A stretch of 64,000 nucleotides of DNA from Stappia indica (GTDB lineage Bacteria > Pseudomonadota > Alphaproteobacteria > Rhizobiales > Stappiaceae), in assembly GCF_020177335.1 (NCBI RefSeq), contig NZ_JAIVMG010000008.1:1-64000 (forward strand), given 5' to 3'. Under the pieces are notes generated by a model, which saw only the letters and a program-made list of their open reading frames with translations, did no database searches and was not told the DNA's origin. This document shows positions 890-23,363 of this stretch, in pieces. Every line of letters begins with the position of its first letter. Positions within the stretch are counted from its first letter, which is position 1. A program made the translations under genes and the position numbers.

Positions 890-1348
890 TCAGGGCTGGC
901 TGCGGCGCTGCATCACCAGTTTGGCGACCATCACCTGAACCGGCTCATCGCGCTGATTGAGCGTCCTGATCCGCAACTTGACGATCCCGCGCTTCGGTGC
1001 GGATCGGGAGGGGATGGTTTCCAGCGCGGTAATGTCGAGCCGGAGAGTGTCGCCGGGCAGGACGGATTGAGGCCAGCGAAACTCCTCGAAACCGGCGCCG
1101 ACAATCCCGCCGGCGGGCCGGAAGGCGCTGCCGACCAGAAGGCGCATGGTCAGCGCCGCCGTGTTCCAGCCGCTGGCCACCAGCCGTCCGAAGAACGTAT
1201 CGCGGGCGCGCTCATCGTTGAGATGAAACACCTGCGGATCGTATTGCGCGGCGAAGGTGACGATCTCTTCTTCGGTCACGGTGATGGATGGCGAGCCGAA
1301 GGTCATGCCGGGGACGATCTCGTCAAGATAAAGCAGGGGTTCGCTCAT
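890..1348 (-). CDS. MaoC-family (R)-hydratase/dehydratase
   Basis: A 152-residue single hot-dog protein. It shows the MaoC layout: an F-x-x-x-Y-D-P-Q-V-F-H-L-N segment (hydratase Asp/His motif), then a W-P-x-S-V-L-P-G-D-T-L segment followed by strands ending in VMVAKLVMQR. MaoC enzymes hydrate or dehydrate (R)-3-hydroxyacyl thioesters. The ATG at 1348 (MSEPLLYLD) was chosen; the longer upstream frame is compositionally non-protein and overlaps the preceding gene. It is the last gene of the leftward operon with the FabG-like, ACP and FabZ-like genes, so it probably acts on the acyl-ACP or acyl-CoA chain of the cluster. Confidence 0.85.
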   Translation of the reverse strand: MSEPLLYLDEIVPGMTFGSPSITVTEEEIVTFAAQYDPQVFHLNDERARDTFFGRLVASGWNTAALTMRLLVGSAFRPAGGIVGAGFEEFRWPQSVLPGDTLRLDITALETIPSRSAPKRGIVKLRIRTLNQRDEPVQVMVAKLVMQRRSQP

Positions 1349-1400
1349 GCCACCTCCCGTGGTTGCGTGCGCCATCCGCCAGCTCTGGCCGGATGCGGTG

Positions 1401-2141
1401 TCATCTTGCGAAGCCGCCATCGCAGCGGATGGTGGTCGACTGCACATAGCCCGGCTCGAGCAGGAACCGGACGGCTTGCGCGATTTCCTCCGGCTTGCCG
1501 ATGCGCCTGAGGGCGGAGACATCCAGAAAGGGTTGAATGCGCTCCCGGGCGAGGGGGGCGGTCATGTCCGTTTCGATGAAGCCGGGGGCGACGGCATTGA
1601 CGCCAATTCCCTTCGGGCCGAGCAACTCGCCGAGCCAGTGCGTAACGCCGATCAGCCCGCCCTTGCTGGCGCTGTAGGGAACCTGCCCGTCCGTGCCATA
1701 GACGCCCCCAAGCGAGGAGACCAGAACGATACGGCCCGCCGCCGATTGCTCCAGAAAGGGCAACGCGCTGAGGAGCAGTCGCAAGGTTCCGGTCAGATTG
1801 GTCCGGATCACCGAGGAGATCTGATCTGCCTGCAAGGTGAGGAAGGGGCCGTCATTGGTCATGCCCGCATTGCCGACCACCGCATCGATGCCGCCGAAAC
1901 GGGCGGCGACGCGGGCCGGCAGCTCTCGCGTTTCCTGCGGGTCGGACATGTCGGCCTGAAACACCTCGGCCTTGGCGCCGGCAGCTCTCACCGTCGCGGC
2001 GACCTGGTCGGCGGCAGCGCGATCGGTGCGATAGCACAGGGCCAGCCGGTGACCGTCCGGGGCCAGATGCTCGGCTATGGAGGCGCCGATGCCCCGGGAG
2101 GCGCCGGTGATGAGAATGGTCGAGGGAGATGGCGGGTTCAA
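1401..2141 (-). CDS. FabG-like 3-oxoacyl-ACP reductase (SDR)
   Basis: A 246-residue classical SDR. It has the NAD(P)-binding GASRGIG at about residues 13-19, NAG at 91-93, and the catalytic Ser near 142, Tyr156 and Lys160 in YSASK. The C-terminus (TTIRCDGG) is FabG-like and the length is normal for the family. The best start is a TTG at 2141 that overlaps the TGA of the upstream gene, indicating translational coupling; a conventional ATG would lie far inside the upstream gene in an implausible frame. It should reduce the 3-oxoacyl-ACP made by the KS pair. It is coupled directly to a degenerate SDR, so the two may form a heteromer. Confidence 0.88.
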   Translation of the reverse strand: MNPPSPSTILITGASRGIGASIAEHLAPDGHRLALCYRTDRAAADQVAATVRAAGAKAEVFQADMSDPQETRELPARVAARFGGIDAVVGNAGMTNDGPFLTLQADQISSVIRTNLTGTLRLLLSALPFLEQSAAGRIVLVSSLGGVYGTDGQVPYSASKGGLIGVTHWLGELLGPKGIGVNAVAPGFIETDMTAPLARERIQPFLDVSALRRIGKPEEIAQAVRFLLEPGYVQSTTIRCDGGFAR

Positions 2142-2839
2142 ATGTTCTGCTCCGTCAAGCCGATGCCGACAGGAACGACCAGGCCGGACATGGGAAGGTC
2201 TGCCTGAGCGAGCAGGCCGCACAGAAAGCCGGCCACCGAGGTTGCGGGCGACTTGCGGAACCGCGAGGCATAGACATTCGTGCGGTTGCGCGGGGTGCGC
2301 CACTGGTCCTCCGGAACCCGGTCGAATTCCAGCTGGACCTCAAGGCAATTGACGAGAACATCCATCCGGCGGATCTCCCGGGCAAAGCTCTTCACCGCGG
2401 CGCGCCGGGCCATCGTGTCGATGGGCGAGGTGGCTATGGGAACAAGGTACCTGGCGCTTTGATCGGGGGTGATGACCCAGATCTGCCCGCCGCGATGGCG
2501 GGCGAGCAGGCGGCCGGCGGCCTGCAGTTGCATCAGGAACGACAGGATCGCGGTTTCGTGGGAAAGCGCCAGCCGGTCGATGTCGTCGGCCGTGCGCGGC
2601 AGGTCGTGCTCGATGGCGACCGGACCGAAGACGATCCGGTCAATGGGGGCGGCCGACATGTCCCAGGCATCGAGCGCGACCACGGCAGACCCTTGCCGGT
2701 CGCCATCAGGGCGGCCGGCAGGGGCGCCAGCGGGGGCGTGATCGCCAAGCTCATGGACGGCGACCGGCAGGCCGGACAGCTTCGCGCGAAGCGCGTCCAT
2801 CAGGCTGTCGGGCTCGCCAATAAGGAGGACGCCGTTCAT
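2138..2839 (-). CDS. degenerate SDR-like protein, probably non-catalytic
   Basis: A 233-residue protein that reads like a Rossmann-fold SDR whose motifs have been lost. The N-terminal strand (VLLIGEPDS) has no GxxxGxG. The region where YxxxK should lie reads SPIDTMARRAA. The following helix and strand (FAREIRRMDVLVNCLEV) still match the SDR pattern around 'R-V-N'. The C-terminal LVVPVG resembles an SDR end. The ATG at 2839 is used; a TTG at 2857 is possible. It sits between the ACP and the FabG-like gene and is translationally coupled to the latter, suggesting a structural partner of that ketoreductase. The assignment to SDR is by pattern only. Confidence 0.65.
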   Translation of the reverse strand: MNGVLLIGEPDSLMDALRAKLSGLPVAVHELGDHAPAGAPAGRPDGDRQGSAVVALDAWDMSAAPIDRIVFGPVAIEHDLPRTADDIDRLALSHETAILSFLMQLQAAGRLLARHRGGQIWVITPDQSARYLVPIATSPIDTMARRAAVKSFAREIRRMDVLVNCLEVQLEFDRVPEDQWRTPRNRTNVYASRFRKSPATSVAGFLCGLLAQADLPMSGLVVPVGIGLTEQNI

Positions 2840-2860
2840 GTGGTTCGACACCTGCAAGGT

Positions 2861-3166
2861 CTATTGCGCCGGGGCGGCGTCTTGCGGCACGCGCCGCGTG
2901 ACATAGTCCGCAAGCGTGCCGATGGTGGCGCAGGTCTCGCGCAGGTCTTCGGGGGTCAGGTCCTGCCGGGGAAGCGAGAACTGCCGTTCGACGCCCACGA
3001 CCAGTTCGAGTGTGTCGACGGAATCGAGCGAAAGCGGCGGCTCGCTCAAGGCGGTCGCCTCATTGAGATCCTTGAGCTCGATGCCGCTTGCCCCAAGATC
3101 GAGGCGCTCGATCAGAAGGTCCTTGCAGATGAAATCGACGATCTGTTCCCTGGTAATCGCAGTCAT
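2861..3166 (-). CDS. acyl carrier protein
   Basis: A 101-residue acidic protein with the ACP fold pattern. The phosphopantetheine serine is Ser49 in LSLDSVD, followed by the helix II sequence TLELVVGVERQF. A GGAG ribosome-binding site lies about 11 bases before the ATG at 3166. It is the longest of the three ACPs in the cluster, with a short Pro/Ala tail. Because it sits with the dehydratase and reductases, it is a likely carrier for chain extension. The Sfp-type transferase at 22533 is the obvious candidate for its activation. Confidence 0.9.
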   Translation of the reverse strand: MTAITREQIVDFICKDLLIERLDLGASGIELKDLNEATALSEPPLSLDSVDTLELVVGVERQFSLPRQDLTPEDLRETCATIGTLADYVTRRVPQDAAPAQ

Positions 3167-3268
3167 ATCGGTTGCTCCGTCTTGGTTCGGATCCTGAAGG
3201 GTGCCGCGCGATGCTCCGTGCCCTGGCAACAATGTCGGCACCAATGTCGAGGCGTACGGCCTGGCTCG

Positions 3269-3763
3269 TTATTCCGCCCACCAGAGTGTCAGTTCGGCGC
3301 GCATGCACTGAACGTCTCCCCGTCGGATCGAGGTCTTGAAGGAAAAGAAGCTGCCCGGGCCGGCTGTCCCTCGCGGGCCGGGATCACGCGTCAGTCGCGC
3401 CTCCGCGACCACGGTTTCGCCCGGCAGGACCGGCGCCTTGAAGGCGGCATTGCCGGAGCCGACGAGATAGGCCTTGACCGTCTTGCCGGCGCGCAAGCCC
3501 AGCAGCACGTTCGCGGTCTGGGCAGCCATTTCCAGAAGAAGCACCCCCGGGACGATCGGGTCCCCCGGAAAGTGACCGGCAAAGAACCAGTTCCCTTCAT
3601 CGAACCGGTGGGTTCCGCGTGCGGTCAGGAGCTCGCTGTCGGCCTCCACATGGTCGACGAAGAGAAAAGGGTCCCGGTGGGCAAGCAGCCTTTTCACGGA
3701 AGCGGCGGACGCAGGGTCGGTCACGGTCTCGGGGGGAAGCATCTGGCTCTCCGAATGTCTCAT
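3269..3763 (-). CDS. FabZ/FabA-like 3-hydroxyacyl-ACP dehydratase
   Basis: A 164-residue hot-dog dehydratase. HRDPFLFVD (29-37) is the FabZ entry motif, His64 in GHFPGDPIVPG and Glu78 in LLLEMAAQ are the expected catalytic pair. It has a short N-terminal extension relative to E. coli FabZ. Two starts are possible, 3763 (MRHSES) and 3742 (MLPPE); the second has a better spaced GGAG. Neighbours are an ACP and ketoreductase genes, so it should remove water from the beta-hydroxyacyl-ACP intermediate and give double bonds. No enoyl reductase gene is seen in the cluster, which favours an unsaturated (polyene) chain. Confidence 0.9.
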   Translation of the reverse strand: MRHSESQMLPPETVTDPASAASVKRLLAHRDPFLFVDHVEADSELLTARGTHRFDEGNWFFAGHFPGDPIVPGVLLLEMAAQTANVLLGLRAGKTVKAYLVGSGNAAFKAPVLPGETVVAEARLTRDPGPRGTAGPGSFFSFKTSIRRGDVQCMRAELTLWWAE

Positions 3764-3789
3764 GCGTCCGCCGTTCCTCGTCTCGGGCC

Positions 3790-5010
3790 TCAGTTCTTCG
3801 CGGTTTCCTTCTGCTCGATGACTTCCCAGCCGTCGGTCATCGCCTTCACCAGGACAAAGTCCTTGTCGGATTCGCCCTCGTTGGTCCGGGCGATGGGGCC
3901 GAGGAGGCCGTCGACCAGGTTGAGCTTCTGGATGCCCCGGCGGATTTTTTCGCGATCCTCGGCGACGGTTTCCGGCTTTGCCTCAACGCCCTCGTTCTCG
4001 ATCGCCTGCTTGATCGCATACATGTTTTCCCAGGCCGCCATGCTGTGAAGGTCCGCATAGCCGCCGAACTGCGCCGTGGCCGCGGCCGCCGCGCGGGCGA
4101 TGTCGTTGATCGGGGCGAAGCTGGTCGGTACGATCATCCCGGCGGCCTGTGCGCCGCAATCGTCGATCAGCTGAGGGGTGGTGAGGCTGGTCAGCCCGAT
4201 GACCGCGGGCGGGTTGTAGTTCTGGCGCTCCATCTCGCGCAGCACGCCGCAGGCGGAGAACGGGTGGGCGGAAATCACCACGATATCCGCATTCACGGCG
4301 GCCATTTCCTTGACCTGCTCGACGAAGTCCACATCGTCGACCAGCCACTTCGCCTGGCCCTTCACCTCATAGCCGGCGAGCCCGGCGCGTTCCTTGATGA
4401 TGTTGTACCAGGTCTGGTTGGAGTGAACGAAGTTCTCCTCAACGCCGGCGTAGACGGTCTTCAGCTCAGGGTTTTCCTGATGCATCCACGCCCAGAGCGC
4501 ATCGTACATCTGGATCTCGTCGGGGATGTTGCGGAACGCCCAGTCGGAAATCCCGGCAAGACCCTTGCGCATCGCCACATCGGCGAAAACCGGGATCCGG
4601 TGACCGGTGTCGCTGTCATCGCCAGCCTTTTTCTGCAGGCTTTCGAACACCGGCTTCAGCACCGAGGAGCAGGTGGTGCCGATGACCGCCAGCCAATCTT
4701 CCTCTGCGAAAGACCCCAGCGTCGCGACACCGAGTTCCGAATCGCAGCGATCATCCCGATACTCGATCTCGATGCGCGCCCGTGTGCCATCGGCCAGGCG
4801 AACCCCGCCGGCGCGATTGATGAGCGATCCGGCGGCACGCATGGCCGCTTCACTGTTGTCGCCGAAGGGCTTCAGAACGCCCGACTTCGCGCCGAAGCCG
4901 CCGATCTTCACGACCCGGTCGGCAGACCAGGCCGGCTGTGCACAAAGCATGGCGGCTGCGAGTCCGACAACTGCCCCCGTACAGGACTTCACTGCAGAGA
5001 TCGTGATCAT
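3790..5010 (-). CDS. periplasmic binding protein, LivJ-like (type 1 fold)
   Basis: A 406-residue ABC-type solute-binding protein. An N-terminal signal peptide (about residues 1-29, ending AWSA) precedes the mature start DRVVKIGG. The body follows the branched-chain amino-acid/amide binding family: GDNSEAAMRAA, VIGTTCSSV, a central IVVISAHPFSACG and a C-terminal DGLLGPI segment. No permease or ATPase gene for this class lies nearby, so it is an orphan. It is the first gene of the leftward biosynthetic operon, 26 bp before the dehydratase, which suggests it binds a precursor, a signal or the product rather than feeding a normal amino-acid importer. Confidence 0.88.
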   Translation of the reverse strand: MITISAVKSCTGAVVGLAAAMLCAQPAWSADRVVKIGGFGAKSGVLKPFGDNSEAAMRAAGSLINRAGGVRLADGTRARIEIEYRDDRCDSELGVATLGSFAEEDWLAVIGTTCSSVLKPVFESLQKKAGDDSDTGHRIPVFADVAMRKGLAGISDWAFRNIPDEIQMYDALWAWMHQENPELKTVYAGVEENFVHSNQTWYNIIKERAGLAGYEVKGQAKWLVDDVDFVEQVKEMAAVNADIVVISAHPFSACGVLREMERQNYNPPAVIGLTSLTTPQLIDDCGAQAAGMIVPTSFAPINDIARAAAAATAQFGGYADLHSMAAWENMYAIKQAIENEGVEAKPETVAEDREKIRRGIQKLNLVDGLLGPIARTNEGESDKDFVLVKAMTDGWEVIEQKETAKN

Positions 5011-5161
5011 TGCTAAGCCTCTATTTTAAGGTTCACCCTTCGGGATTGAAAACGGGAGTCAGGCAAATCAAATAATACATCGTTTGATTTGCGTATTTCA
5101 TGATTATTTACATGGCATTCATTTCGAGAATGCAGACTCCATTATATAGTCAATTAGATCA

Positions 5162-5179
5162 ACTACCCTTTGTGGTAGT
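5162..5179. promoter_or_regulatory. dyad operator candidate 1 (ACTACC-N6-GGTAGT)
   Basis: A perfect inverted repeat with 6-base arms and a 6-base spacer (ctttgt). A second, related site lies 54 bp downstream. The 18-20 bp size fits a dimeric HTH regulator such as a LuxR-type protein, one of which is encoded at 12777-12983, but the sequence is not a canonical lux box. Confidence 0.45.
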
Positions 5180-5216
5180 GGGTTATGTCAATAAATATAT
5201 GTAACTAGTGGGGTCG

Positions 5217-5233
5217 CTACTATTGTTGGTAGT
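5217..5233. promoter_or_regulatory. dyad operator candidate 2 (CTACT-N6-GGTAGT)
   Basis: This site matches the first dyad at 13 of 17 positions (CTACY, six bases, GGTAGT). The 54-bp centre-to-centre distance is about five helical turns, as expected for two operators on the same face of the DNA. It lies about 70 bp upstream of the exporter start at 5303. Confidence 0.4.
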
Positions 5234-5302
5234 TGCTCGCCCTATTTTCATGATCAATTCTCTTGGCGATTTTCTATTTCGCAATTGCACCCTGGAGGGG
5301 TC

Positions 5303-6811
5303 ATGCCTGGCGTGCCCAAAGACACGGCCCCTGAACCGGGCGCCATCCTCGATCCCCGCGCCGCTCCCGAGATCGGCGGTGTTCCCATGCAAGGCTCGCT
5401 CTGGATGCTCGCAGTCATTCTGTGCGGGCAGGCTCTGGCTGCCATGGATACGGCGATCGTCAACGTGGCCGCGCCAACGCTGCAGGCCGAACTCGGCCTG
5501 TCCGGCGCCTCCTTGCAATTGACCGTTGCCGGCTATGGCCTCGCCTATGCGTCTTTCCTGATCACGGCAGCAAGGCTCGGTGATCTTTACGGCTACCGCC
5601 GCTTGTTCATGCTTGGGGTGGCGGTCTTCACGATCTCGTCGCTGGTGTGCGGCACGGCGCAAACCGCTGGTGTCCTGATCCTCGGCCGCATCCTGCAGGG
5701 GCTTGGGGCGGCGCTCCTGGTGCCGCAGGTGCTCTCCCTGATCCAGTTGAGCTACAGCGGGGCGGCGAAGGCTCGCGCCGTCGGCCTCTACTCCATGATC
5801 CTCGGGTTGGGCGCTGCGGCCGGTCAGCTTCTCGGCGGGGTCATCGTCGATATCGACCTGTGGTCGCTGAGCTGGCGCCCGGCGTTTCTGGTCAATATTC
5901 CCGTTGGCGTCGCGCTCATCGGTCTGGCGCTGTTTTTCCTACCACGGATTGTCGAGCGCCGCCGGGTCAGGCTCGATCTGGTCGGCGTTCTTGCGGTCAC
6001 CGGTGTCGCCCTCTGCGTGCTGGTGCCGTTGACCTTCGGCCGGGAGCTGGGCTGGCCGGTCTGGTCTCTCGTGATGATCGGCGCCGGCCTGCTCGCGCTC
6101 GTTGCCTTCTGGCGCTACGAGCAGGCGCTGTCGCGCCGTGGCGGCGCACCGCTGCTGGATCCCGCCTTGCTGACCATTCGCGGCGTGCCCCAGGGGCTGG
6201 GGATCGTCGCTGTCGGCTTCATCGGATACGGCGGCTGGCTTCTCACCGTTGCCCTTTATCTGCAGGTCGGCCTGGGCTTCAGCCCGCTGGTCTCGGGGGT
6301 GACCTTCGGTGCCTATGCGGCCGGCTTCGGGGTGTGGAACCTGTTCTGGTCGCGCCTGCCGGACCGGATCGTCGCCCATGCGCCCTCCGTGGCCCTGGCG
6401 ACCTTGCTGTGTGCCAGTCTGGCATTCGGGTTTCTGGTCTCCGATGGCTGGTGGCACCCGGTCGCCGGACCTCTGCTGCTGTTTGCCGCCGGCAGCGGCC
6501 ATGGCCTGAGCTTCGGCACCAGCGTCAACCGCATGACCGCTGTCATCCCGCCTTCGTTCGCGGCGTCGCTGAGCGGCCTCGTCACCAGTTGCTCCCAGTT
6601 TTCCATCGTCACCGGAACCGCGCTTTTGGGCAGCGTCTATTTCGCGGTCGCAGCCAGCGTTCCGGACGGTGAGAACGGGTCTGGCGCAGGCATGGGTGCT
6701 GTGGCGTTCGCCGTTGCCATTGGCGCGGGTCTCGGCCTCATTCTATCGGCTCGGCTGCCGTCCACTTCCTTGATTTCACAAGTTAAAAGCGCGAGGCCCT
6801 CGGATGGGTGA
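5303..6811 (+). CDS. MFS transporter, DHA2 (EmrB/QacA) type exporter
   Basis: A 502-residue integral membrane protein with about 14 hydrophobic segments, the DHA2 topology. Family signatures are visible: MDTAIVNVAAPTLQ in the first helix (motif D1), ARLGDLYGYRR (motif A) in loop 2-3, GRILQGLGAALLVPQ (motif B) and LGLGAAAGQLLGG (motif C, typical of exporters). The ATG at 5303 is preceded by GGAGGGG. It leads the rightward operon and its stop overlaps the ACP start by 8 bp. The likely job is export of the product of the cluster and self-protection. Confidence 0.9.
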   Translation: MPGVPKDTAPEPGAILDPRAAPEIGGVPMQGSLWMLAVILCGQALAAMDTAIVNVAAPTLQAELGLSGASLQLTVAGYGLAYASFLITAARLGDLYGYRRLFMLGVAVFTISSLVCGTAQTAGVLILGRILQGLGAALLVPQVLSLIQLSYSGAAKARAVGLYSMILGLGAAAGQLLGGVIVDIDLWSLSWRPAFLVNIPVGVALIGLALFFLPRIVERRRVRLDLVGVLAVTGVALCVLVPLTFGRELGWPVWSLVMIGAGLLALVAFWRYEQALSRRGGAPLLDPALLTIRGVPQGLGIVAVGFIGYGGWLLTVALYLQVGLGFSPLVSGVTFGAYAAGFGVWNLFWSRLPDRIVAHAPSVALATLLCASLAFGFLVSDGWWHPVAGPLLLFAAGSGHGLSFGTSVNRMTAVIPPSFAASLSGLVTSCSQFSIVTGTALLGSVYFAVAASVPDGENGSGAGMGAVAFAVAIGAGLGLILSARLPSTSLISQVKSARPSDG

Positions 6812-7061
6812 GAATTCAAATGCAGAAATTGTCGATGAGCTTCGTCATCTGATAGCGCAGATCATCCATCTGGATCCCGGCGCGATGGAAGCGGGGCAGC
6901 CGCTGCGCGACTACGGCATCACTTCCATCGAGCTGATCGATTTCATCAGGCGGATCGAGCGTCGCTACTCCATTTCGTTTCAGCCCGATGCGCTGAAGGA
7001 AATCACGTTGAACGCGCTCGCCGAGAATGTTCATCTGGCAATGGACGGGCAGATGCAATGA
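6804..7061 (+). CDS. acyl carrier protein
   Basis: An 85-residue ACP. The phosphopantetheine attachment is Ser41 in YGITSIELIDF, where the usual D-S-L is T-S-I. Helix III and the C-terminus are normal. The start overlaps the exporter stop, and its own stop overlaps the KS start by 4 bp (ATGA). Being directly coupled to the KS and CLF-like genes, it is the best candidate for the carrier that interacts with the ketosynthase during chain extension. Confidence 0.9.
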   Translation: MGENSNAEIVDELRHLIAQIIHLDPGAMEAGQPLRDYGITSIELIDFIRRIERRYSISFQPDALKEITLNALAENVHLAMDGQMQ

Positions 7062-11038: not shown

Positions 11039-11130
11039 GGCGCAAGGCCGTCCCTTTGCAGATCCGGCGGGGCTCCCCGCCGGGTGGGCGCTGCGAGGGG
11101 CCTGCTCCGGCCGGCGTGGGGGGAACGCCA

Positions 11131-15807: not shown

Positions 15808-17855
15808 TGAGAGTTTTCAAGCTGAAGGACCAGTCGCTTCTGCCCGCGTTCGGGATCCAGATGGCTTCGGTCGATGCCTTTTCCGGAACGGACGACGTCG
15901 GGGCTGGCTATGGGGTGATCGAGCCTGAGGGCGTCACCGCCTTTCACCGCCACGATGAATGCGAGCTGTTCGCGATTCTTGAAGGCGAGGGCGTGGTGGA
16001 GGCCGACGGGGGCGACAGGATCGCCGTCGGTTCGGGCGATCTCGTCGCGATTTCCCCGTTCGACAAGCATGTGCTGCGCAACACCGGATCCGGCAAGCTC
16101 GTTTTCGCAACCGCCTACTGGCGCGATGCGAAAACCGCAATGAAGGAAGCGGAGAAGGGGGCTTCGGCGCAAGAGGAGGTGACGGATCCGGCCGCCGAGG
16201 CGCCGTGTTTCGTCTTTTCCACGCCGCCGACGCCCAATGGCGATCTGCATCTGGGCCATCTGTCCGGACCGTATTTCGGGGCCGATGTCTTTGCCCGGTT
16301 CCAGCGCCTGCTCGGCAAGACCGCCTTCCACATCACCGGAAGTGACGATTTCCAGAGCTATGTGATCGCCAAGGGGCGGCAGCTCAACAAGACGCCGCAA
16401 GAGGTTGCCGACCACTTCAGCCGCGAGATCACCGAGACCCTCGACCTTCTCGACGTTCAGATCGATCAGTTCACGCTGACCTCCCACGCACCGGACTATG
16501 AGCGTCAGGTGAAGGCGTTCTTCCAGAGTGTGGCCGCATCCGACAGCGTTCAGCGTCGGGCGGACAGCGCGGCCTTCGATCCGACGACGGATGCCTATCT
16601 CTATGAGTGTGACATCAAGGGCCGTTGCCCGACCTGCGGATCTGGATCCGGCGGCAACATCTGCGAGGAATGCGGCGAGCCGAACCTGGCCTATGACATG
16701 CTGGACCCGGTTTCGACCCAGACCGGGGCAACCCCCGTGGTCCGCCCCTGCGAGCGCTATGCGATCGCGCTGAATGACTTTGCCGATCATATCCTCGGCG
16801 CGATGCGGGAAAGCAAGGCCAGCGCACGCCTTCAGGCTCTGGCCGAGCGGGTGCTTGCGCGCGAGGATTTCCACGTTCCGATCACCCACCCACAGAACTG
16901 GGGGATTTCCCCGACCGATCCGGACATGGCCGATCAGGTCTTTTGGGTCTGGCCCGAGATGTCGTTCGGTTTTCTCTACGGGATCGAGGCGCTCGGTCAG
17001 CGGATCGGCCACGACTGGAAGGCGCTGGAGCCGCGGGACAATTGGAAGTTTGTCCATTTCTTCGGCTACGACAACAGCTTCTACCACACGATCCTCTACC
17101 CCGCGCTCTACAAGGCCGCCTTCCCCGATTGGCACGCGGACATCGAGTATCACGTCAATGAATTCCTGTGCCTTGAGGGCGATAAATTCTCGACCAGCCG
17201 GCAACGGGCTGTCTGGGGCAAGGAGGTTCTGACCCCCGAGACCGTCGATTGCGTCCGCTTCCACCTTGCGCTGACACGGGGCGAGATCGAGCGCACGAAT
17301 TTCTCGGTGAGCGCGTTGCAGGCAACCAACAGGGACCTGATCGACGTGTGGCAGGGCTGGCTTCAGGCGCTTGGGGCCGAGGTGCTCACGCGCCATGACG
17401 GCGTGGCGCCGGACGCGGGCGACTGGAGCGTCGATCACCAGGCGTTCCTGCAGCTTCTGGAGCAGCATCGCCAGCAGATCGAAACCGCCTATGGCTCCGC
17501 CGGCTTTTCGCTGAACAAGGCGGCCGACACGCTCCAGACGCTTGTTCGCGATACGATCAGATTCGTCAAGGCAAACCGGCATCTGGCGGGCCACGCCGCC
17601 GCTGCGGATCGCCACAGAACGACGATCGCCCTGCAGCTTGCGGCAGCGCGCCTTCTGTCCGATGCCACCGCGCCCTTGATGCCGCGCTTCTCCGAAGCCT
17701 TGAGAAAGGGGCTGGGGCTCGACCCGGCCAGCACCTGGCCGCGGACCATCGAGCTTCTGCCCGCCGGCAATCGGGTCACCTTGAGCGATCAGCGCTTCTT
17801 TTCCGAGAAGGTGGGCGAGAACGTCGCGCCGATCAAAGTGACGGATGCAGCCTGA
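15807..17855 (+). CDS. cupin-methionyl-tRNA-synthetase fusion, N-N bond-forming (hydrazine synthetase)
   Basis: A 682-residue two-domain protein. Residues 1-110 are a cupin with metal ligands His47, His49, Glu53 and His88. Residues 134-682 are a MetRS-like domain with HLGH at 148-151, a zinc knuckle with Cys274, 277, 286 and 289, and a degenerate KMSKS (KFSTS, 460-464). Spb40 (s56-p1) and Tri28 (triacsin) have this architecture: the MetRS domain activates glycine for ester formation with N6-hydroxylysine and the cupin drives rearrangement to the N-N bond. The ATG at 15807 shares its A with the upstream TGA. It is not the housekeeping MetRS: the cupin and context exclude that. Confidence 0.95.
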   Translation: MRVFKLKDQSLLPAFGIQMASVDAFSGTDDVGAGYGVIEPEGVTAFHRHDECELFAILEGEGVVEADGGDRIAVGSGDLVAISPFDKHVLRNTGSGKLVFATAYWRDAKTAMKEAEKGASAQEEVTDPAAEAPCFVFSTPPTPNGDLHLGHLSGPYFGADVFARFQRLLGKTAFHITGSDDFQSYVIAKGRQLNKTPQEVADHFSREITETLDLLDVQIDQFTLTSHAPDYERQVKAFFQSVAASDSVQRRADSAAFDPTTDAYLYECDIKGRCPTCGSGSGGNICEECGEPNLAYDMLDPVSTQTGATPVVRPCERYAIALNDFADHILGAMRESKASARLQALAERVLAREDFHVPITHPQNWGISPTDPDMADQVFWVWPEMSFGFLYGIEALGQRIGHDWKALEPRDNWKFVHFFGYDNSFYHTILYPALYKAAFPDWHADIEYHVNEFLCLEGDKFSTSRQRAVWGKEVLTPETVDCVRFHLALTRGEIERTNFSVSALQATNRDLIDVWQGWLQALGAEVLTRHDGVAPDAGDWSVDHQAFLQLLEQHRQQIETAYGSAGFSLNKAADTLQTLVRDTIRFVKANRHLAGHAAAADRHRTTIALQLAAARLLSDATAPLMPRFSEALRKGLGLDPASTWPRTIELLPAGNRVTLSDQRFFSEKVGENVAPIKVTDAA

Positions 17856-19396
17856 TGACGATCAAGGCCTGGCCACAGGAAACCGCGTTCCTCAACGCTT
17901 TGTTCAAGCGTCGATGGAGCGCGGAGCACAAGCTCAGCATTTATCGGTTTGGCGCCGAAGCTGAGGCCATCCCCCTGTCGGACCTGCAGGGGATGGTGGA
18001 AGGCGTCGCCGCCTGGCTGACATCCCTCGGCCTCCAGCGGCACGATCGGATCGGCATTCTGTCGTCCAACCGGCTCGAATATGTCCTTCTCGATCTTGCG
18101 GCTCTCCGGCTGGGGCTCGTGACCGCGTGTTTCGACCCCGCCTCCTTCGCGCAAGAGACTGATCTTGTGGAAAAATACGGTCTGAAGCAGCTGTTTCTGG
18201 ACACGCGGGTCGCAAGCCCGCGATCGGGCGCGGACCACGTCCTGCCCATCGAGCGGGTGCTTGAGGAAGCGGGCAAGGAGCGGGACCGGGACAGCGCCGA
18301 GCCGGTTACCTATGCCCCCGAGGATATCAGCACCATCAAGTTCACCTCCGGGAGCACGGGGATCGCCAAGGGGCTCGGCGCCACCGTCGGCAGCATCGAG
18401 CAATCGCTTCGCTCGACGCAGAAGCTGTTTTCGCACGGGCCCGGCGATACGCTCCTTGTGTTCCTGCCCTTGTCCCTGTTGCAGCAACGCTACTGGGTCT
18501 ATTCGGCCATTCTTTACTGGCACGACATCGTGATCACCGATTCCCGGCTCGCGCTGGAGGCGATCCAGAGGGAACATCCCACCGTGATCATGGGGGTGCC
18601 CGCCTTCTTCGACACCTTGAAGGAATACATCGAGATGTCGGCGGGCGCCGGCTCGCCGCGTGCCTCGGCGATCGATGTGCTGGGCGACCGCCTGCGCTAT
18701 CTCTGGACCGGATCGGCCGCCGCGCGGCCCGATACGCTGGAGTTCTTCGAGGTCACCTGCGGTGTGCCGATCTTCGAAGGCTACGGTCTCAACGAGACCT
18801 GCATCACCACCAAGAACCACCCCGGGGCCCACAAGCGCGGCAGTGTCGGCAAGCCGTTGGACGGCGTTCGGGTCGAGATCGACGCGGAGGGCCAGATCCG
18901 TGTCTCTCGCGATCACCCGGTGAACACCCGCTATCTGTTCGCGCCGGACGGCGCCTCGGAAAAGGTGTTCATGGCCGATGGATCGGTGGCGACCGGCGAT
19001 CTCGGTTACATCGACGACGAGGGCTTTCTATATGTGATGGGCCGTGCCGACGATGTGGTCGTGCTTGCCAACGGCAAGACGATCTCGGTGCGCCCGCTTG
19101 AAGAGGCAATTCTCCGGCTGCCCGAGGTGAAACAGGCGATGGTGTTCGGCACCGGGCGCCCCGTTCTGGCCAGCCTGGTTTGCCCCGCGCCCGGGACCAA
19201 TCCGGATGCGGTCAAGCGCGCCGTCCAGCAAGCCACGCGCGGCTTCGGCTCTGAAGCCGTCGAGCTGGTCATTCCCGTTGCCGATGGCTTTTCGGAGGGC
19301 GCGGGCCTCCTGACCTCGCAGGGAAAACTGCGGCGCCGGGCCATCACCGAACATTATCATCAGGCCATTCAAGAGGCGTATGGAGACCAGTCATGA
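17855..19396 (+). CDS. adenylate-forming acyl ligase (ANL family)
   Basis: A 513-residue ANL enzyme. Core motif A3 is FTSGSTGIAKG (163-173), A5 is GYGLNET, A7 is TGDLGYID and the C-terminal catalytic Lys is in SQGKLRRR. The ATG overlaps the previous stop by one base and the gene is coupled to the following ACP (4-bp overlap), so it should adenylate a small acid and load it on that carrier. In this operon the substrate is most simply hydrazinoacetate, as in the triacsin pathway. A fatty or amino acid cannot be excluded without testing. Confidence 0.9.
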   Translation: MTIKAWPQETAFLNALFKRRWSAEHKLSIYRFGAEAEAIPLSDLQGMVEGVAAWLTSLGLQRHDRIGILSSNRLEYVLLDLAALRLGLVTACFDPASFAQETDLVEKYGLKQLFLDTRVASPRSGADHVLPIERVLEEAGKERDRDSAEPVTYAPEDISTIKFTSGSTGIAKGLGATVGSIEQSLRSTQKLFSHGPGDTLLVFLPLSLLQQRYWVYSAILYWHDIVITDSRLALEAIQREHPTVIMGVPAFFDTLKEYIEMSAGAGSPRASAIDVLGDRLRYLWTGSAAARPDTLEFFEVTCGVPIFEGYGLNETCITTKNHPGAHKRGSVGKPLDGVRVEIDAEGQIRVSRDHPVNTRYLFAPDGASEKVFMADGSVATGDLGYIDDEGFLYVMGRADDVVVLANGKTISVRPLEEAILRLPEVKQAMVFGTGRPVLASLVCPAPGTNPDAVKRAVQQATRGFGSEAVELVIPVADGFSEGAGLLTSQGKLRRRAITEHYHQAIQEAYGDQS

Positions 19397-19659
19397 GCGA
19401 GCTTGAAACCACCATACGGCATCACATCGCGGCGACGGCGAAGCCCGCTCAGATCGCGCCGGAGGGCATCGACCTCACCGTCGATCTCAAGCAGGAGTTC
19501 GGCATTTCATCCATGAAGATGATCTTGCTGATGACGACCCTGTGCAAGGAACTCGGGGTCACCTTGTCGAGCTTCGACGAAAGAGACCTGGCAGGCATCA
19601 ACAGCGCGGGCGATCTGATCCGCGCCTTCGAAAAGGCCCGGGAGGGGGTGGCATCATGA
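19393..19659 (+). CDS. acyl carrier protein for the hydrazine unit
   Basis: An 88-residue carrier with phosphopantetheine Ser40 in FGISSMKMI, where the canonical D-S-L is S-S-M. It overlaps the ligase gene by 4 bp at its start and the GNAT gene by 4 bp at its end, so the three are translated as a unit. The divergent motif and this coupling distinguish it from the two chain-extension ACPs of the cluster and suggest that it carries hydrazinoacetate during tailoring. Confidence 0.9.
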   Translation: MSELETTIRHHIAATAKPAQIAPEGIDLTVDLKQEFGISSMKMILLMTTLCKELGVTLSSFDERDLAGINSAGDLIRAFEKAREGVAS

Positions 19660-20276
19660 GCTGGAAAACCGTGTTCAACGAGACGCTTGAAAACGAGCGT
19701 GTTCTCATGCGGCCGTTGCAGGCATCGGATCGGGCCGAGCTCGCCAAGATCGTGTTCGATCCGGATATCTGGCGCTATTTCGTTACCCGGATCGACAGCG
19801 AGGAAGACCTTGACGGGTTCATGGAGACCGGGCTTGCCGACATCGCGGCCGGTCGGCGCGCGGTCTTCATGATCTTCGACAAGAAAACCGGCAAGCTGGC
19901 CGGCAGCATGTGTTTCGGCAATCTCGCCGAGGCGGATCTGCGGCTTGAAATCGGCTGGTCCTGGCTGTCCAAGGCGTATCGCGGCGCGGGCCTCAACCGC
20001 TACGCCAAGCTTGCCCTCCTGACCCATGCCTTCGAGGTGCTGGGCTGCGCCCGTGTCGAGTTCAAGACCGACGTGTTGAACGAGCAGGCCCGCAAGGGGC
20101 TGAGCAACATCGGCGCCACCGAGGAAGGCGTGTTGCGCAGTTTCAATTTCATGCCCGGAGGCCGGCGCCGGGATGCGATCTTCTATTCGGTCCTCGCGGA
20201 TGAATGGCCCAGGGTGAAGGCCTTGCTGCTCGGGCAGGAGCGTGTCGAGGGTGCCCGCGATGTCCAGCCTGCCTGA
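19656..20276 (+). CDS. GNAT N-acyltransferase (RimJ/RimL type)
   Basis: A 206-residue GNAT. It opens with LENERVLMRPLQASDRAEL, typical of the RimJ/RimL group, and has the acyl-CoA-binding region around SWLSKAYRGAGLNRYAK and the helix following 'VEFKTDVLNEQARKGL'. The ATG at 19656 overlaps the ACP stop. In the triacsin pathway a GNAT succinylates carrier-bound hydrazinoacetate to mask the reactive terminal nitrogen; position next to ligase, ACP and acyl-CoA dehydrogenase supports the same role here. A different acyl donor is possible. Confidence 0.85.
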   Translation: MSWKTVFNETLENERVLMRPLQASDRAELAKIVFDPDIWRYFVTRIDSEEDLDGFMETGLADIAAGRRAVFMIFDKKTGKLAGSMCFGNLAEADLRLEIGWSWLSKAYRGAGLNRYAKLALLTHAFEVLGCARVEFKTDVLNEQARKGLSNIGATEEGVLRSFNFMPGGRRRDAIFYSVLADEWPRVKALLLGQERVEGARDVQPA

Positions 20277-21336
20277 CGTCATCACGCTCGATGGCTGCCC
20301 TCTGACCCGGGGGCAGCAGCACGGCCGGCAGGCAGCCGGCCGCATCGCTGCGTTTCTGGATGATGGCCTGGCCCGTCTCGACACCTTCCTCGGGCCGGAT
20401 ATCCGGTTGTCGGATCTTGGCCAGGACATCGCCGCCTATGGCGCGGCGATCGAGCGGGAGACGCCGGAGCTCTACCGGGAAATCATCGGTTTGAGCGAAG
20501 GCGCCGGGATCTCGATGGACGAGGCCGTGCTCTTGCAGGTGCGCAGGGAACTGGCCGGCTTCAGCCGGTTCAACACCTCCGGCGACTGCACCACCTTCGC
20601 CCGCACGGGCGAGGGCGCGGTGATCGGCCAGACGGTGGACCTTGCCGGCGATCTCGACGATCAGGTCACCCTTCTGAAGGTCCGTGACGCGGAAAGCGGG
20701 CATCGCGCGCTGGTGATGAGTTTCACCGGGCTGCTCGGCTATCTCGGTGTCAACGATCGCGGTCTGGCCGTTGGCCTCAACCTGGTGCTTGCCGGCGACT
20801 GGCGGCCCGGGTTGCCGCCCTATCTGGCGATCCGCCACCTGCTCGACAGCTGCGGGTCGGTGGAGGAGGCCATCGCCTGCCTTCGGAGGCTGGATCTTGC
20901 CAGTTCGCGCTGCTTCATGCTGTGCGATGGCGCCAACGCCGCCTTTGTCGAGGCGATGGCGGGGAAGCTGGCGGTGCATCGCGGCGCGGAACTGACCCAC
21001 ACCAACCATTTTCTCGATCCCGCCTTTGCGCCGCATGACGAGCTGAACATCTTCGCGCAGAACGGCTCGCGCAAGCGGCTCGATGCCTGCCGCAACTGGC
21101 TGGCGTCTCATGGCGCCAATCGGGAGCCGGAAAGCTATTTCGACCTGTTCAGCACCGAGCCGGTCCGGGTGAAGGACAGCGGCAACAGGGCCGTTGAAAA
21201 AACGGTGGCCTCCGTTGTCCTCGATCCGGTGAACAGGAGCCTTCACGTCCGGGCGGGCGATCCATTCGGCACGCCGACGGTGTCCTTCGACATGGTCGGC
21301 TGGGGAGAGAACAGACATGAATGTGCAAACGCCTGA
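20260..21336 (+). CDS. C45-family Ntn hydrolase (isopenicillin N acyltransferase-like)
   Basis: A 358-residue protein of the acyl-CoA:6-aminopenicillanate acyltransferase (peptidase C45) family. The N-terminal part has the RGQQHGRQ motif. The expected self-cleavage site precedes Cys110 in SGDCTTFART, which would become the nucleophile of the mature beta chain, close to Cys103 in the fungal enzyme. It also has GQTVDLAGD and NDRGLAVGLN segments seen in the family. The start at 20260 is preceded by GAGGG and overlaps the GNAT gene. These enzymes cut or transfer amide-bound acyl groups, so it may remove the protecting acyl added by the GNAT. That pairing is inference from gene order. Confidence 0.85.
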   Translation: MSSLPDVITLDGCPLTRGQQHGRQAAGRIAAFLDDGLARLDTFLGPDIRLSDLGQDIAAYGAAIERETPELYREIIGLSEGAGISMDEAVLLQVRRELAGFSRFNTSGDCTTFARTGEGAVIGQTVDLAGDLDDQVTLLKVRDAESGHRALVMSFTGLLGYLGVNDRGLAVGLNLVLAGDWRPGLPPYLAIRHLLDSCGSVEEAIACLRRLDLASSRCFMLCDGANAAFVEAMAGKLAVHRGAELTHTNHFLDPAFAPHDELNIFAQNGSRKRLDACRNWLASHGANREPESYFDLFSTEPVRVKDSGNRAVEKTVASVVLDPVNRSLHVRAGDPFGTPTVSFDMVGWGENRHECANA

Positions 21337-22519
21337 GCGAAAAGCCACCCGAGCACAGGACGGCGACTGGCTCGCGCCGGACCGCGCCGACCTGCCGTTC
21401 TTCGGCGAGGAACACCAGGCGCTGACGCGGCGCCTGTCCGACTGGGCAAGAGAGGCGGAGGGCGAGATCGCCGAGGCGCTGGACCTGCCGCCGCCCGAGG
21501 CGGTCCGCCGGCTCACCCGTCTCCTGGGGCAGGGCGGATGGTTCTCGCTGGCGCTCAAGGCTCCGGTCGACACCCGCGCGATCTGCCTCATTCGCGAGGC
21601 CTTTGCCTATCGCCATGATCTTCTCGACTATGCGTTTTCCATTCAGATCCTGGCAGCCCTGCCGTTGGCCCTGTGGGGCAGCGACATGCACCGCTCGGAA
21701 ATTCTGCCGAAGCTGTGTTCCGGCGAGGAGATCGGGGCCTTCGCGCTCACCGAGCGTGACAGCGGCTCGGATATCTCCGCCATCGGTCTGCAAGCGGTGG
21801 AAACCGACGGCGGCTTCCGCCTGACGGGCCAGAAGAGCTGGATCGCCAACGCGGATATTGCCGACCAGGTCGTCGTCCTGACGCGCACCGGCGCGGGGGC
21901 AGGGCCGCTGGGCCTGACGCTTTTCGTCGCCGACACCAGGTCCGAGGGCTGCCGGGTTCAGCCGGTCGAGCTGATCGCGCCCCGGCCCTTCGGCGACATC
22001 ACATTCGACGATTTTCTCGTTCCCACCGACCGGCTTGTCGGCGACAAGGGGATGGGGCTGGCGGTGGCCATCGATACGCTGGAGCGCTGCCGGATCACCG
22101 TCGGCGCGGCCGCCAACGGCTTTGCCCGCCGGGCCGTGGTCGAAGCCGGCGGCCACGTGCTGGAACGTCGGGCCACCGGGCGCCGCCTTGCGGATATTCC
22201 TGCCGTGCGCGGCATCCTGACAAGGATGACCGCCGCGATGCACCTGTCGCAACTGACCGTGACCGAAGCGGCCTGGGAGATGGACAGGGGCGGGGCGCGC
22301 AAGAGCCCGCTGTCCTCACTCGCCAAGCTGCATGCCACCGAGGCGGCTCAGGGCATCGTCGATCAGAGCGTTCAGTTGCACGGTGCCGCCGGGCTTGTGG
22401 CCGGCTCCGTTCCGGAAAACCTCTATCGTCAGATCCGCTCTCTGCGGCTTTATGAGGGGGCGTCGGAAGTGCAGGAAGACATCCTGAGCGAGGCGGTCAT
22501 CGCCGGAAGTCTTCGCTAG
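21317..22519 (+). CDS. acyl-CoA dehydrogenase-like flavoenzyme
   Basis: A 400-residue acyl-CoA dehydrogenase family member. The FAD and substrate signature ALTERDSGSDIS, the KSWIANADIAD segment, DFLVPTDRLVG and the C-terminal RLYEGASEVQEDI (with the usual catalytic Glu position) are all present. It overlaps the preceding gene by 20 bp. No beta-oxidation partner is nearby. In triacsin and azaserine biosynthesis an acyl-CoA dehydrogenase homologue desaturates carrier-bound hydrazinoacetate (CH2-NH to CH=N), giving the hydrazone. The same reaction is proposed here. Confidence 0.87.
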   Translation: MNVQTPERKATRAQDGDWLAPDRADLPFFGEEHQALTRRLSDWAREAEGEIAEALDLPPPEAVRRLTRLLGQGGWFSLALKAPVDTRAICLIREAFAYRHDLLDYAFSIQILAALPLALWGSDMHRSEILPKLCSGEEIGAFALTERDSGSDISAIGLQAVETDGGFRLTGQKSWIANADIADQVVVLTRTGAGAGPLGLTLFVADTRSEGCRVQPVELIAPRPFGDITFDDFLVPTDRLVGDKGMGLAVAIDTLERCRITVGAAANGFARRAVVEAGGHVLERRATGRRLADIPAVRGILTRMTAAMHLSQLTVTEAAWEMDRGGARKSPLSSLAKLHATEAAQGIVDQSVQLHGAAGLVAGSVPENLYRQIRSLRLYEGASEVQEDILSEAVIAGSLR

Positions 22520-22532
22520 AAGACGCTGCCGG

Positions 22533-23363
22533 ATGCGGGATCGCGCCAGCATGCCGACCGGGGCCGGTGGCCGCGTGATGGGGGAGTGGCCGGCGTCCGG
22601 GCGGCTCTCGCCATTGCGCGGACGGCGCCCGTTCGTGCGGGTGGCACTGCTCGATCTGGGCGATCTGGCGCCTTTGCGTGTCACGCGCATGATGGCCGAT
22701 CTCGATCCGCATGAGCGGCGGCGGGCCGGGGTGCTGCGGTCTGCCGCCTTGCGCGCCGAGTATGTGCTTGCCCACGGGCTCTTGCGGCATCTGTTGAGCT
22801 GGACCTTTCAGGCGCCCGCCCGGTCCTGGGCAATTTCAGCCGACGCCGCCGGCCGGCCGCATATCGTCTCGCCGTATCTGCATCGGGATGTCGCGGTGTC
22901 CCTGTCCCACACGCGCGGGTTCGTCGCTGCTGCAATCGCCCGGGGCTTCAGGATCGGCATCGATGCGGAACGACAGGATCCGTCGCGGTCCCAGCTCGAT
23001 ATCGCCGACCGCTTCTTTGCAGGCCAAGAGGCGGAGCGCCTGCGGGCCTTGCCGCAGAACCGGACCAGCCCGGAATTCACCGCCCTGTGGACCTTGAAGG
23101 AAGCCTTTGTGAAGGCCATCGGCAAGGGCTTCGCGCAACCGCTGAAGAGCTTCTCCTTCGACGGCGCCACGCCTGCGAGGGTCGCGTTTCACGATGCGGA
23201 ACTGGGGGCGCCGGAGCGCTGGCGCTTCGTCTCCGGCGCGTTCGACAGCGTGCATGTCTCGCTTGCCTGCGAGCTGACTGCGGGCGGGGGATCCCGCCTG
23301 CCCATGGAGGCGGTTGCCCTGGGAGGCGGGCGGCCTTTGCCTCTGAGCAGACGCTTTCTGTAG
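22533..23363 (+). CDS. Sfp-type 4'-phosphopantetheinyl transferase
   Basis: A 276-residue PPTase. Conserved motifs are AVSLSHTRGFVAAAIA, the Mg-binding GIDAE and FTALWTLKEAFVKAIGKG, which carries the W-x2-K-E-A motif. The N-terminal 30 residues are poorly conserved in style, so the true start may be the ATG at 22578 (MGEWP). It is the last gene of the hydrazine operon and would convert the cluster's three ACPs to holo form. The 90 bp after it end in a strong hairpin shared with the convergent transporter operon. Confidence 0.9.
   Translation: MRDRASMPTGAGGRVMGEWPASGRLSPLRGRRPFVRVALLDLGDLAPLRVTRMMADLDPHERRRAGVLRSAALRAEYVLAHGLLRHLLSWTFQAPARSWAISADAAGRPHIVSPYLHRDVAVSLSHTRGFVAAAIARGFRIGIDAERQDPSRSQLDIADRFFAGQEAERLRALPQNRTSPEFTALWTLKEAFVKAIGKGFAQPLKSFSFDGATPARVAFHDAELGAPERWRFVSGAFDSVHVSLACELTAGGGSRLPMEAVALGGGRPLPLSRRFL

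Follow-up and report, generated by a model that had tools for sequence, protein, structure and literature searches.

In the dob pathway of Nocardia, Dob3, an AurF-family ferritin-fold diiron oxygenase/oxidase (FDO), oxidizes 4-hydrazono-3-oxobutanoate to a diazo compound (PMC13061610, Nature 2026); that report lists the metal-site residues and calls Dob3 the first biosynthetic enzyme known to turn a hydrazone into a diazo group. The steps that lead to a carrier-bound hydrazonoacetyl group have been shown, in parts, for homologous enzymes of the dob, azaserine, triacsin and s56-p1 systems (PMC13061610, PMC10445470, PMC11705231). Here we describe a cluster of about 22 genes in three operons, at positions 890–23363 of the first 64 kb (the window) of a 249-kb contig from the 4.66-Mb genome of a Stappia (Alphaproteobacteria; Stappiaceae).

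We propose that this cluster makes a small diazo polyketide, via a type II polyketide synthase (PKS) primed with a hydrazonoacetyl group and an FDO, and we put the probability of this reading at roughly 0.62. A diazo product is the best prediction because the window FDO keeps all seven Dob3 site residues, namely the six metal ligands and the seventh His of FDO N-oxygenases (E87, E122, H125, E181, H208, E212 and H215). The original prediction for this locus was of a pathway that forms hydrazinoacetate (HAA), modifies it while carrier-bound and links it to a reducing type II PKS with an AurF-like oxygenase; it is supported by homology, by conserved residues and by co-inheritance in a second genus. 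Dob3 was missing from its precedents, and the range of products that it gave (hydrazone, diazo, azo or N-oxide) can, we infer, be narrowed to a diazo compound or a derived heterocycle.

Genes were assigned with Pfam and NCBIfam profiles, and gene starts are those of the open reading frames (ORFs) or guesses from homology. The minus-strand operon carries, in order, a binding protein, a FabZ-like dehydratase, an acyl carrier protein (ACP), a degenerate short-chain dehydrogenase/reductase (SDR), a ketoreductase (KR) and a MaoC-like protein. The divergent plus-strand operon carries a major facilitator superfamily (MFS) protein, an ACP, a ketosynthase (KS), a protein resembling a chain-length factor (CLF), an α/β hydrolase, the FDO and a second MFS protein. 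The third operon, also on the plus strand, carries a lysine hydroxylase, a flavin adenine dinucleotide (FAD) oxidase, a cupin-MetRS (MetRS, methionyl-tRNA synthetase), a ligase, an ACP, a GNAT protein, a C45 hydrolase, a dehydrogenase and a phosphopantetheinyl transferase (PPTase). The genes named beforehand were found by Pfam and NCBIfam at or near the positions given for them. The ACPs number three, a pair from the PKS operons and a third from the hydrazone cassette of the third operon; to the genes named we add the degenerate SDR, the Peripla_BP_6 protein, the Cys-type α/β hydrolase and the PPTase. The features are as follows.

890–1342, minus strand: MaoC-like hydratase/dehydratase (PF01575, E 2.7e-14; the ORF opens at 1522, start near 1342 by homology)
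1401–2138, minus strand: ketoreductase, FabG-like SDR with Ser-Tyr-Lys (PF00106, E 5.6e-52; TIGR01830 at 210 bits, below cutoff)
2138–2839, minus strand: degenerate SDR-like protein without the Tyr-xxx-Lys pair (conserved, 60% identity in Pseudovibrio and 36% in B. stagnalis; neither a Pfam nor an NCBIfam match)
2861–3169, minus strand: acyl carrier protein 2 (PF00550, 22.9 bits, cutoff 20.8)
3269–3763, minus strand: FabZ-like 3-hydroxyacyl-ACP dehydratase with His/Glu motif (PF07977, E 2.2e-15; motif kept in three lineages)
3790–5010, minus strand: Peripla_BP_6 periplasmic binding protein of amino-acid/amide type (PF13458, E 2.6e-35; signal-peptide-like N terminus by eye)
5162–5179, unstranded: operator-like palindrome ACTACC-N6-GGTAGT in the divergent promoter (degenerate second copy at 5216–5233)
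5285–6811, plus strand: MFS exporter 1 (PF07690, E 4.6e-36)
6804–7061, plus strand: acyl carrier protein 1 (PF00550, E 4.1e-12)
7058–8248, plus strand: type II ketosynthase with Cys-His-His (PF00109/PF02801)
8245–9144, plus strand: short partner protein resembling CLF/KS-beta, with Gln where the active-site Cys would be (PF00109, E 1.7e-11, residues 30–158 only; 299 aa)
9041–10072, plus strand: α/β hydrolase with Cys at the nucleophile elbow, candidate release or cyclizing enzyme (start probably near 9125; TIGR02427 at 44 bits, below cutoff)
10106–11038, plus strand: AurF-like FDO, proposed hydrazone-to-diazo oxidase (PF11583, E 1.5e-28)
11056–12363, plus strand: MFS exporter 2 (PF07690, E 2.8e-29; 53% identity in B. 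stagnalis)
13442–14731, plus strand: lysine N6-hydroxylase of DobG/Spb38/AzsL type (PF13434, E 2.9e-102; 49% to the N. ninae dob locus)
14728–15807, plus strand: FAD-dependent oxidase of glycine-oxidase/Spb39 type (PF01266, E 3.1e-28; 40% to dob)
15804–17855, plus strand: cupin-MetRS hydrazine synthetase of Spb40/Tri28/DobE type (PF09334 and PF07883; 49% to dob)
17855–19396, plus strand: adenylating ligase of DobC/AzsP/Tri29 type (PF00501, E 7e-47; 44% to dob)
19393–19659, plus strand: carrier protein of DobQ/AzsQ/Tri30 type (PF00550, E 1.2e-5)
19656–20276, plus strand: GNAT, proposed HAA succinyltransferase of DobB/AzsS/Tri31 type (PF13302, E 1.3e-17; 62% to dob)
20242–21336, plus strand: C45 hydrolase, proposed desuccinylase of DobA/AzsT type (PF03417, E 2.6e-25; NF040521 above cutoff)
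21317–22519, plus strand: acyl-CoA-dehydrogenase-like flavoenzyme of DobM/AzsF/Tri22 type (PF02770 and PF00441; 46% to dob)
22533–23363, plus strand: phosphopantetheinyl transferase (PF01648, E 5.9e-17)

First, the third operon holds, by Pfam, all eight gene types of the α-hydrazonoacetyl-carrier-protein cassette. By analogy with the homologous enzymes, (i) lysine would be N6-hydroxylated, (ii) the cupin-MetRS would couple N6-hydroxylysine to glycine, (iii) the FAD oxidase would free HAA, and (iv) the GNAT would succinylate HAA, the ligase load it onto the carrier, the dehydrogenase oxidize it and the C45 hydrolase desuccinylate it, yielding hydrazonoacetyl-carrier protein. The 22 window proteins were compared by tblastn with 85 loci, 80 of them from a genome scan (which kept 80 of 252 relatives) and five from plasmid records. 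Seven of the eight cassette proteins match the N. ninae dob locus at 40–62% identity over at least 90% of their length, whereas tblastn found no counterpart of the carrier protein within that locus. These seven are all matched in 50 of the 85 loci, and individual matches number 84 for the lysine hydroxylase, 70 for the GNAT, 61 for the C45 hydrolase, 57 for the dehydrogenase and 46 for the carrier protein.

The cupin-MetRS carries the motifs HLGH and KFSTS, and its cupin His/Glu residues are invariant across five relatives. E54 (HxHDExE) and K461 (KFSTS), likewise invariant in the five, correspond, by motif and not by alignment, to the key residues of PyrN, cupin Glu E56 and synthetase Lys K458. 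The placement of this protein among hydrazine-forming relatives, set beforehand as a check on the original prediction, was examined in a tree of 34 hand-picked rows (32 of the 85 loci, L003 and the window), in which the window falls among cassette-bearing loci and apart from a five-row rhizobial group without GNAT. The split is not clean, because three further rows without a GNAT match sit within the actinobacterial cassette branch. Five rhizobial loci (L006, L078, L085, L086 and L089) encode a cupin-MetRS and a lysine hydroxylase with no hydrazone cassette in the stretches examined, and at least one of them, L006, adjoins nif genes. Their cupin-MetRS proteins form a tight separate clade, which suggests that symbiotic rhizobia may make another N–N compound. 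Within the fetched flanks, complete cassettes occur elsewhere in Proteobacteria in S. meliloti and four gammaproteobacterial loci (L051, L054, L060 and L073), and incomplete ones in the three other alphaproteobacterial (L015, L016 and L018) and the two betaproteobacterial loci (L012 and L013) that were checked. The view that the characterized examples are actinobacterial is correct for those covered, but homologous cassettes are thus also found in other Proteobacteria.

Second, the sequence motifs of the two PKS operons are those of a reducing type II PKS: an active KS, a Cys-lacking partner, a discrete ACP, a KR and a dehydratase. The catalytic residues of the KS, KR and FabZ are intact, and those of the KS are also kept in the two more distant lineages that carry the cluster, Pseudovibrio and Burkholderia stagnalis. 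The Gln-for-Cys replacement in the CLF is kept in all three lineages (Stappia, Pseudovibrio and B. stagnalis), as are the hydrolase motif [TA]YCSG, with Cys at the nucleophile position, and the hydrolase His; the degenerate SDR is without the Tyr-Lys pair in both lineages aligned. On general grounds, we take these motifs of the KS, KR, FabZ, CLF, SDR and hydrolase to be the catalytic ones. In the proposed fifth step, KS/CLF would take the hydrazonoacetyl starter and add one or more malonyl units, and the KR, FabZ and perhaps MaoC would reduce and dehydrate the product to a conjugated chain; the presence of the KR and FabZ leads us to predict 4-hydrazonobut-2-enoyl-ACP, or else a conjugated hydrazone of greater length, as the intermediate. 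The same cassette, an FDO and one ketosynthase would also suit a dob-like outcome, in which one condensation without reduction gives 4-diazo-3-oxobutanoate or diazoacetone and the KR and dehydratases serve otherwise. The PKS, however, is of a different type from that of dob, and the KR, FabZ, both PKS ACPs and the degenerate SDR are kept in all three lineages, which argues for reductive processing and against an unreduced product; we regard the latter as highly improbable.

Among solved structures, the KS is closest to 9s5h and 6kxd, both ahead of FabF, and we take 6KXD to be ishigamide Iga11/12. Cispentacin AmcF is its fourth-best NCBIfam model, matched over the full length at 194 bits vs a cutoff of 325. 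PMC10698177 cites 6KXD as a typical KS-CLF and describes AmcG, the partner of AmcF, as a shortened CLF with some secondary structures missing; it is called a cyclization factor and does its work once the chain has been extended by one C2 unit. By analogy, the short window CLF recalls AmcG and would fit one extension. The likeness bears on whether the product ends in a ring and not in a free diazo group: once the KR and dehydratase had acted, the hydrazone nitrogen would attack the thioester to give a pyridazinone, or a vinylogous diazo made by the FDO would close to a pyrazole, with the Cys hydrolase aiding closure. Both are general routes to pyridazinone and pyrazole rings, and the KR and FabZ could supply the double bond that is required. 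The partner of AmcF is a short cyclization factor and the window CLF is short too, but the KS lies below the AmcF cutoff, the CLF drew weak KS/thiolase models alone and no AmcG model (the NCBIfam library may include none), and the ring chemistry is hypothetical; we consider a ring ending unlikely.

Third, in the proposed sixth step the FDO would oxidize the terminal hydrazone to the diazo group, as Dob3 does. The ORF at the N. ninae locus (L036) was identified as Dob3 because it matches the published residue numbering exactly. The window FDO is 80% identical to its Pseudovibrio and 59% to its B. stagnalis counterpart, and FDO matches lie within five of the 85 loci (L010, L036, L056, L063 and L075), with that of L011 just outside its locus. 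Searches of 372 genomes drawn from the window's class returned the window's own FDO and three matches at 29%, and those of 399 genomes from the order of Ramlibacter with the B. stagnalis FDO (E 1e-30 or better) returned two, at 30% and 25% identity. Trees of 18 and then 15 rows (Pantoea, G797 and G162 were dropped from the second; L007, considered for the first, lacked an FDO match) join the window, Pseudovibrio and B. stagnalis, then a B. glumae FDO beside pabAB and nonribosomal peptide synthetase (NRPS)/PKS genes (support 95/92, 90/87), and group Dob3 with CmlI. Orthology of the window FDO with Dob3 had been expected, but a joint clade of the two was rejected in the 15-row set (approximately unbiased (AU) p 7.9e-5), for a group picked after the first tree and with a warning from the tool of long branches that meet. 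This suggests that the window FDO was recruited independently of Dob3; if it also makes a diazo group, this family has gained the activity two or more times.

The placement outside the Dob3 clade would equally suit an N-oxygenase, which would convert the nitrogen of the hydrazine or hydrazone to an N-hydroxy, azoxy, nitramine or nitro group, and the intact seven-residue site fits such a function, since AurF and CmlI are described as six-electron N-oxygenases in PMC13061610. The sole FDO tested beside the same cassette, however, makes a diazo compound, and an N-oxygenated product seems to us distinctly improbable.

Several points weigh against the diazo proposal. The cluster and its relatives are known from genes alone, with products and enzyme activities predicted. 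The window FDO is no closer to Dob3 (28.7% identity) than to AurF (31.2%) or CmlI (28.0%), and its nearest outside relative, 42% identical, adjoins pabAB and NRPS/PKS genes, as might be expected of an arylamine N-oxygenase; it is thus the gene context that points to the substrate and to diazo formation. Cupin-MetRS family members differ in the amino acid that they use, and glycine is taken to be the substrate here from the GNAT and ligase. The CLF is short (299 aa) with its fold not modelled, the structure model reaching a pLDDT of 37.7 with two input sequences, and the length of the polyketide chain cannot be read from sequence.

In the proposed final step of the diazo pathway, the Cys α/β hydrolase would release or cyclize the product and the MFS proteins would export it. 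In both Stappia and Pseudovibrio, the PKS operon includes the binding protein at 3790–5010 as a lone component, with no permease adjacent; the Pseudovibrio protein is 80% identical to that of the window, and dN/dS against S. taiwanensis is 0.024. Its B. stagnalis relative (L108:40493–40921, 59% over 124 aa) adjoins branched-chain-type ABC permease and ATPase genes, near the cluster. Uptake, sensing or sequestration of the product are candidate roles.

The distribution of the genes bears on whether the operons belong together. In an uncultured Pseudovibrio contig (11000–44102 of 44102), 21 of the 22 genes are present at 50–80% identity (MaoC 72%, KR 74%); the PPTase was not seen in the 33-kb stretch fetched. 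There the cassette is inverted and relocated to the other end of the PKS block, and co-retention through this rearrangement argues that the PKS, FDO and cassette act or travel as one unit. We regard this as good evidence, from gene order and content, that the three operons act together. Closer to the window, S. taiwanensis (CCM 7757) has 21 of the 22 genes at 93–100% protein identity (cupin-MetRS 96%, MaoC 98%) and the PPTase at 84%, and against this species dN/dS is below 1 in all 22 genes (range 0 to 0.41), lowest in the FDO, with 34 synonymous and 0 nonsynonymous differences, and highest in the PPTase, at 0.41. At E 1e-60 or better, a cupin-MetRS was found in two of 61 relatives (own included), both in the genus, where it occurs in two of 14 genomes; 385 genomes drawn from the class gave the window's own and one at 30%. 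For the CLF, 372 class genomes gave its own and one weak match. KS matches occur in seven of the 85 loci, with at least 60% identity solely in L010 and L011, and among the 85 loci Stappia and Pseudovibrio were likewise the sole genera with the remaining PKS genes at an identity of at least 58%, L010 ending before its first operon.

Among 72,556 plasmid records, the FDO query found 11 and the CLF query one, the plasmid plas2 of B. stagnalis YJ-2. Identities there are 42% (ligase), 30% (carrier), 57% (GNAT), 49% (C45) and 41% (dehydrogenase) in the cassette; 51% (KS), 46% (CLF, 189 of 299 aa), 42% (hydrolase), 59% (FDO), 51% (KR) and 43% (FabZ) in the PKS and associated genes; and 31% (ACP), 36% (degenerate SDR), 54% (MFS) and 53% (second MFS). 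Directly upstream of the plas2 ligase lies a 623-aa protein for which searches of Pfam, NCBIfam and the PDB gave no match within their set limits, and further down in the cluster an FdxA ferredoxin, which we presume to be of the 7Fe type. The 623-aa protein matches seven Streptomyces plasmid records at 26–28%, and in the two of the seven that were examined its homologue lies between a ferredoxin gene and genes for glutamine synthetase, adenylosuccinate lyase and a GNAT, a setting like that of the kin/fzm hydrazino cassette described in PMC6133997. The conserved residues named for KinJ, of the KinJ-family heme hydrazine synthases (‘cluster E’), are R497, M498, H541, R551, R570 and C468 (PMC12154649). 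By spacing, with a 6-aa insertion allowed and KinJ itself not aligned, R467, M468, H511, R521 and R546 of the 623-aa protein correspond to five of these, at positions that are invariant. The same preprint reports 7Fe ferredoxins in Burkholderia clusters. No Burkholderia was found among 65 plasmid records matching the cupin-MetRS at E 1e-40. Together, these features suggest that the 623-aa protein is a KinJ-family heme enzyme that replaces the lysine hydroxylase, FAD oxidase and cupin-MetRS. Two points count against such a swap: the sixth KinJ residue, C468, lands by spacing on a Thr in B. stagnalis, and the finding that plas2 has no counterpart of the lysine hydroxylase, the FAD oxidase or the cupin-MetRS applies to its 41-kb stretch, the chromosomes not having been searched. 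The window's genome yielded no KinJ homologue, in a search without a positive control. The plasmid stretch (L108) also encodes, at 1147–4631 and 18431–19969, two B12-binding radical SAM proteins, a haem-oxygenase-like iron protein and a class II aldolase, which are not in the window cluster and hint at a more elaborated product in Burkholderia.

A front end that differs beside the same PKS, FDO and cassette back half supports a suggestion in the literature that KinJ and AzaEFG can stand in for each other as hydrazine sources. A bolder version of the diazo proposal, which we hold as possible and tentative, is of one modular line: a single hydrazonoacetyl-primed reducing type II PKS, whose hydrazine source would have been exchanged wholesale (lysine/cupin-MetRS in Stappia and Pseudovibrio, nitrite and heme KinJ in Burkholderia), with an FDO recruited independently of Dob3 and a vinylogous diazo acid as product (e.g. 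4-diazobut-2-enoate or a longer omega-diazo polyene), which may close to a pyrazole. Ligase and GNAT trees of hand-picked rows (32 of the 85 loci, L097, L108 and the window) neither show nor reject a single clade of Stappia, Pseudovibrio and B. stagnalis (AU p 0.29 and 0.095, respectively). In the free ligase tree, Stappia falls among alphaproteobacterial rows, whereas B. stagnalis joins a pair of betaproteobacterial ones (both placements starred). B. stagnalis joins that pair in the GNAT tree too (92/95), where the Stappia group has no settled position. These placements suggest that the cassette may have joined the PKS-FDO core on separate occasions.

The pattern ACTACC-N6-GGTAGT, picked after viewing the sequences, has one match in the window vs 0.01 expected, and the pair of copies lies in the equivalent place in S. 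taiwanensis and Pseudovibrio; no regulator gene was recognized in the cluster. Another palindrome, at 5063–5092, recurs in S. taiwanensis with one mismatch and is absent, within 5 mismatches, from the Pseudovibrio and B. stagnalis stretches. The AT-rich gap at 13000–13440, with no convincing gene, looks like a promoter region. At the contig end, where the window starts, the truncated ORF 3–809 is another α/β hydrolase with no sign of cluster membership. Adjoining the cluster, 23454–34293 may be a distinct locus of opine-like or metallophore type: besides ABC transporter genes it encodes an octopine-dehydrogenase-like protein (27553–28839), a class V aminotransferase, an MFS protein and a protein resembling flavin monooxygenases. 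A 3086-aa ORF at 54666–63926 on the minus strand, whose sole match is the beta-helix PF13229 at 29 bits, encodes a possible large surface or secreted protein. Rfam gave nothing at gathering score within the window.

Diazo natural products are few and unstable, and the window FDO is a second, independently derived candidate for hydrazone-to-diazo conversion. The PKS, possibly hydrazone-primed, is discrete and hence separately testable, and a natural swap of hydrazine-forming modules would make the KinJ/AzaEFG interchangeability directly testable, on a concrete pair with the same PKS, FDO and cassette back half behind either front end, with the caveat that the two cassettes fall on separate proteobacterial branches of the ligase tree, although a single clade is not rejected. 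Contrary to the original prediction, the cluster cannot be claimed as undescribed: it has the AzaE homologue and all six Pfams by which 129 clusters, with five further architectures, were mined in Actinobacteria and Proteobacteria (PMC13061610), and it may be among them. With no AzaE match on the B. stagnalis replicon, the Burkholderia type was probably missed by that mining. The cluster was the subject of no paper among the matches listed in the open-licence literature for Stappia, Pseudovibrio or B. stagnalis with hydrazine, diazo or cluster themes.

Nor is the combination of genes without precedent, as had been thought: triacsin pairs the cassette with a type II PKS, and dob pairs it with a type I PKS and an FDO. 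Like the window, dob (4-diazo-3-oxobutanoic acid and diazoacetone; Pfeifer et al. 2026, PMC13061610) has the hydrazone cassette, one AurF-family FDO, a C–C bond-forming PKS step and an MFS exporter; unlike it, dob uses a type I PKS (thioesterase-KS-acyltransferase-ACP, with no KR or dehydratase named) where the window has discrete KS, CLF and ACPs, and the two FDOs, about 29% identical, belong to different clades. In triacsin (tri) the cassette likewise feeds a type II PKS (PMC10445470), but with nitrite and the N-nitrosylase Tri17 (PMC11705231), genes for which are not in the Pfam results for the window cluster, and the accessible descriptions in both papers mention no FDO, whereas the window has one. 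The azaserine (azs/aza) and rhizobial pSmeSM11b clusters, the latter alphaproteobacterial, share the hydrazone cassette but are described as NRPS-based with a haem-oxygenase-like or iron-containing redox enzyme; a 3-oxoacyl-ACP synthase moves the hydrazonoacetyl group in azs, and aza is without an FDO, while the Pfam results for the 22 window genes hold no NRPS condensation domain. The highly reducing type II PKSs (the 6KXD KS-CLF and cispentacin AmcF/AmcG) resemble the window in their KS with a Cys-lacking partner and discrete KR and dehydratase, and differ in that the window starter is predicted to be hydrazonoacetyl and its KS lies below the AmcF family cutoff. B. stagnalis plas2, finally, shares the ligase, carrier, GNAT, C45 hydrolase, dehydrogenase, ACPs, KS, CLF, hydrolase, KR, FabZ, degenerate SDR, FDO and both MFS proteins; it differs in having no MaoC counterpart in the stretch examined, in additional haem-oxygenase-like, aldolase, thioesterase and radical SAM genes, and in its front end of a KinJ-type protein and a ferredoxin.

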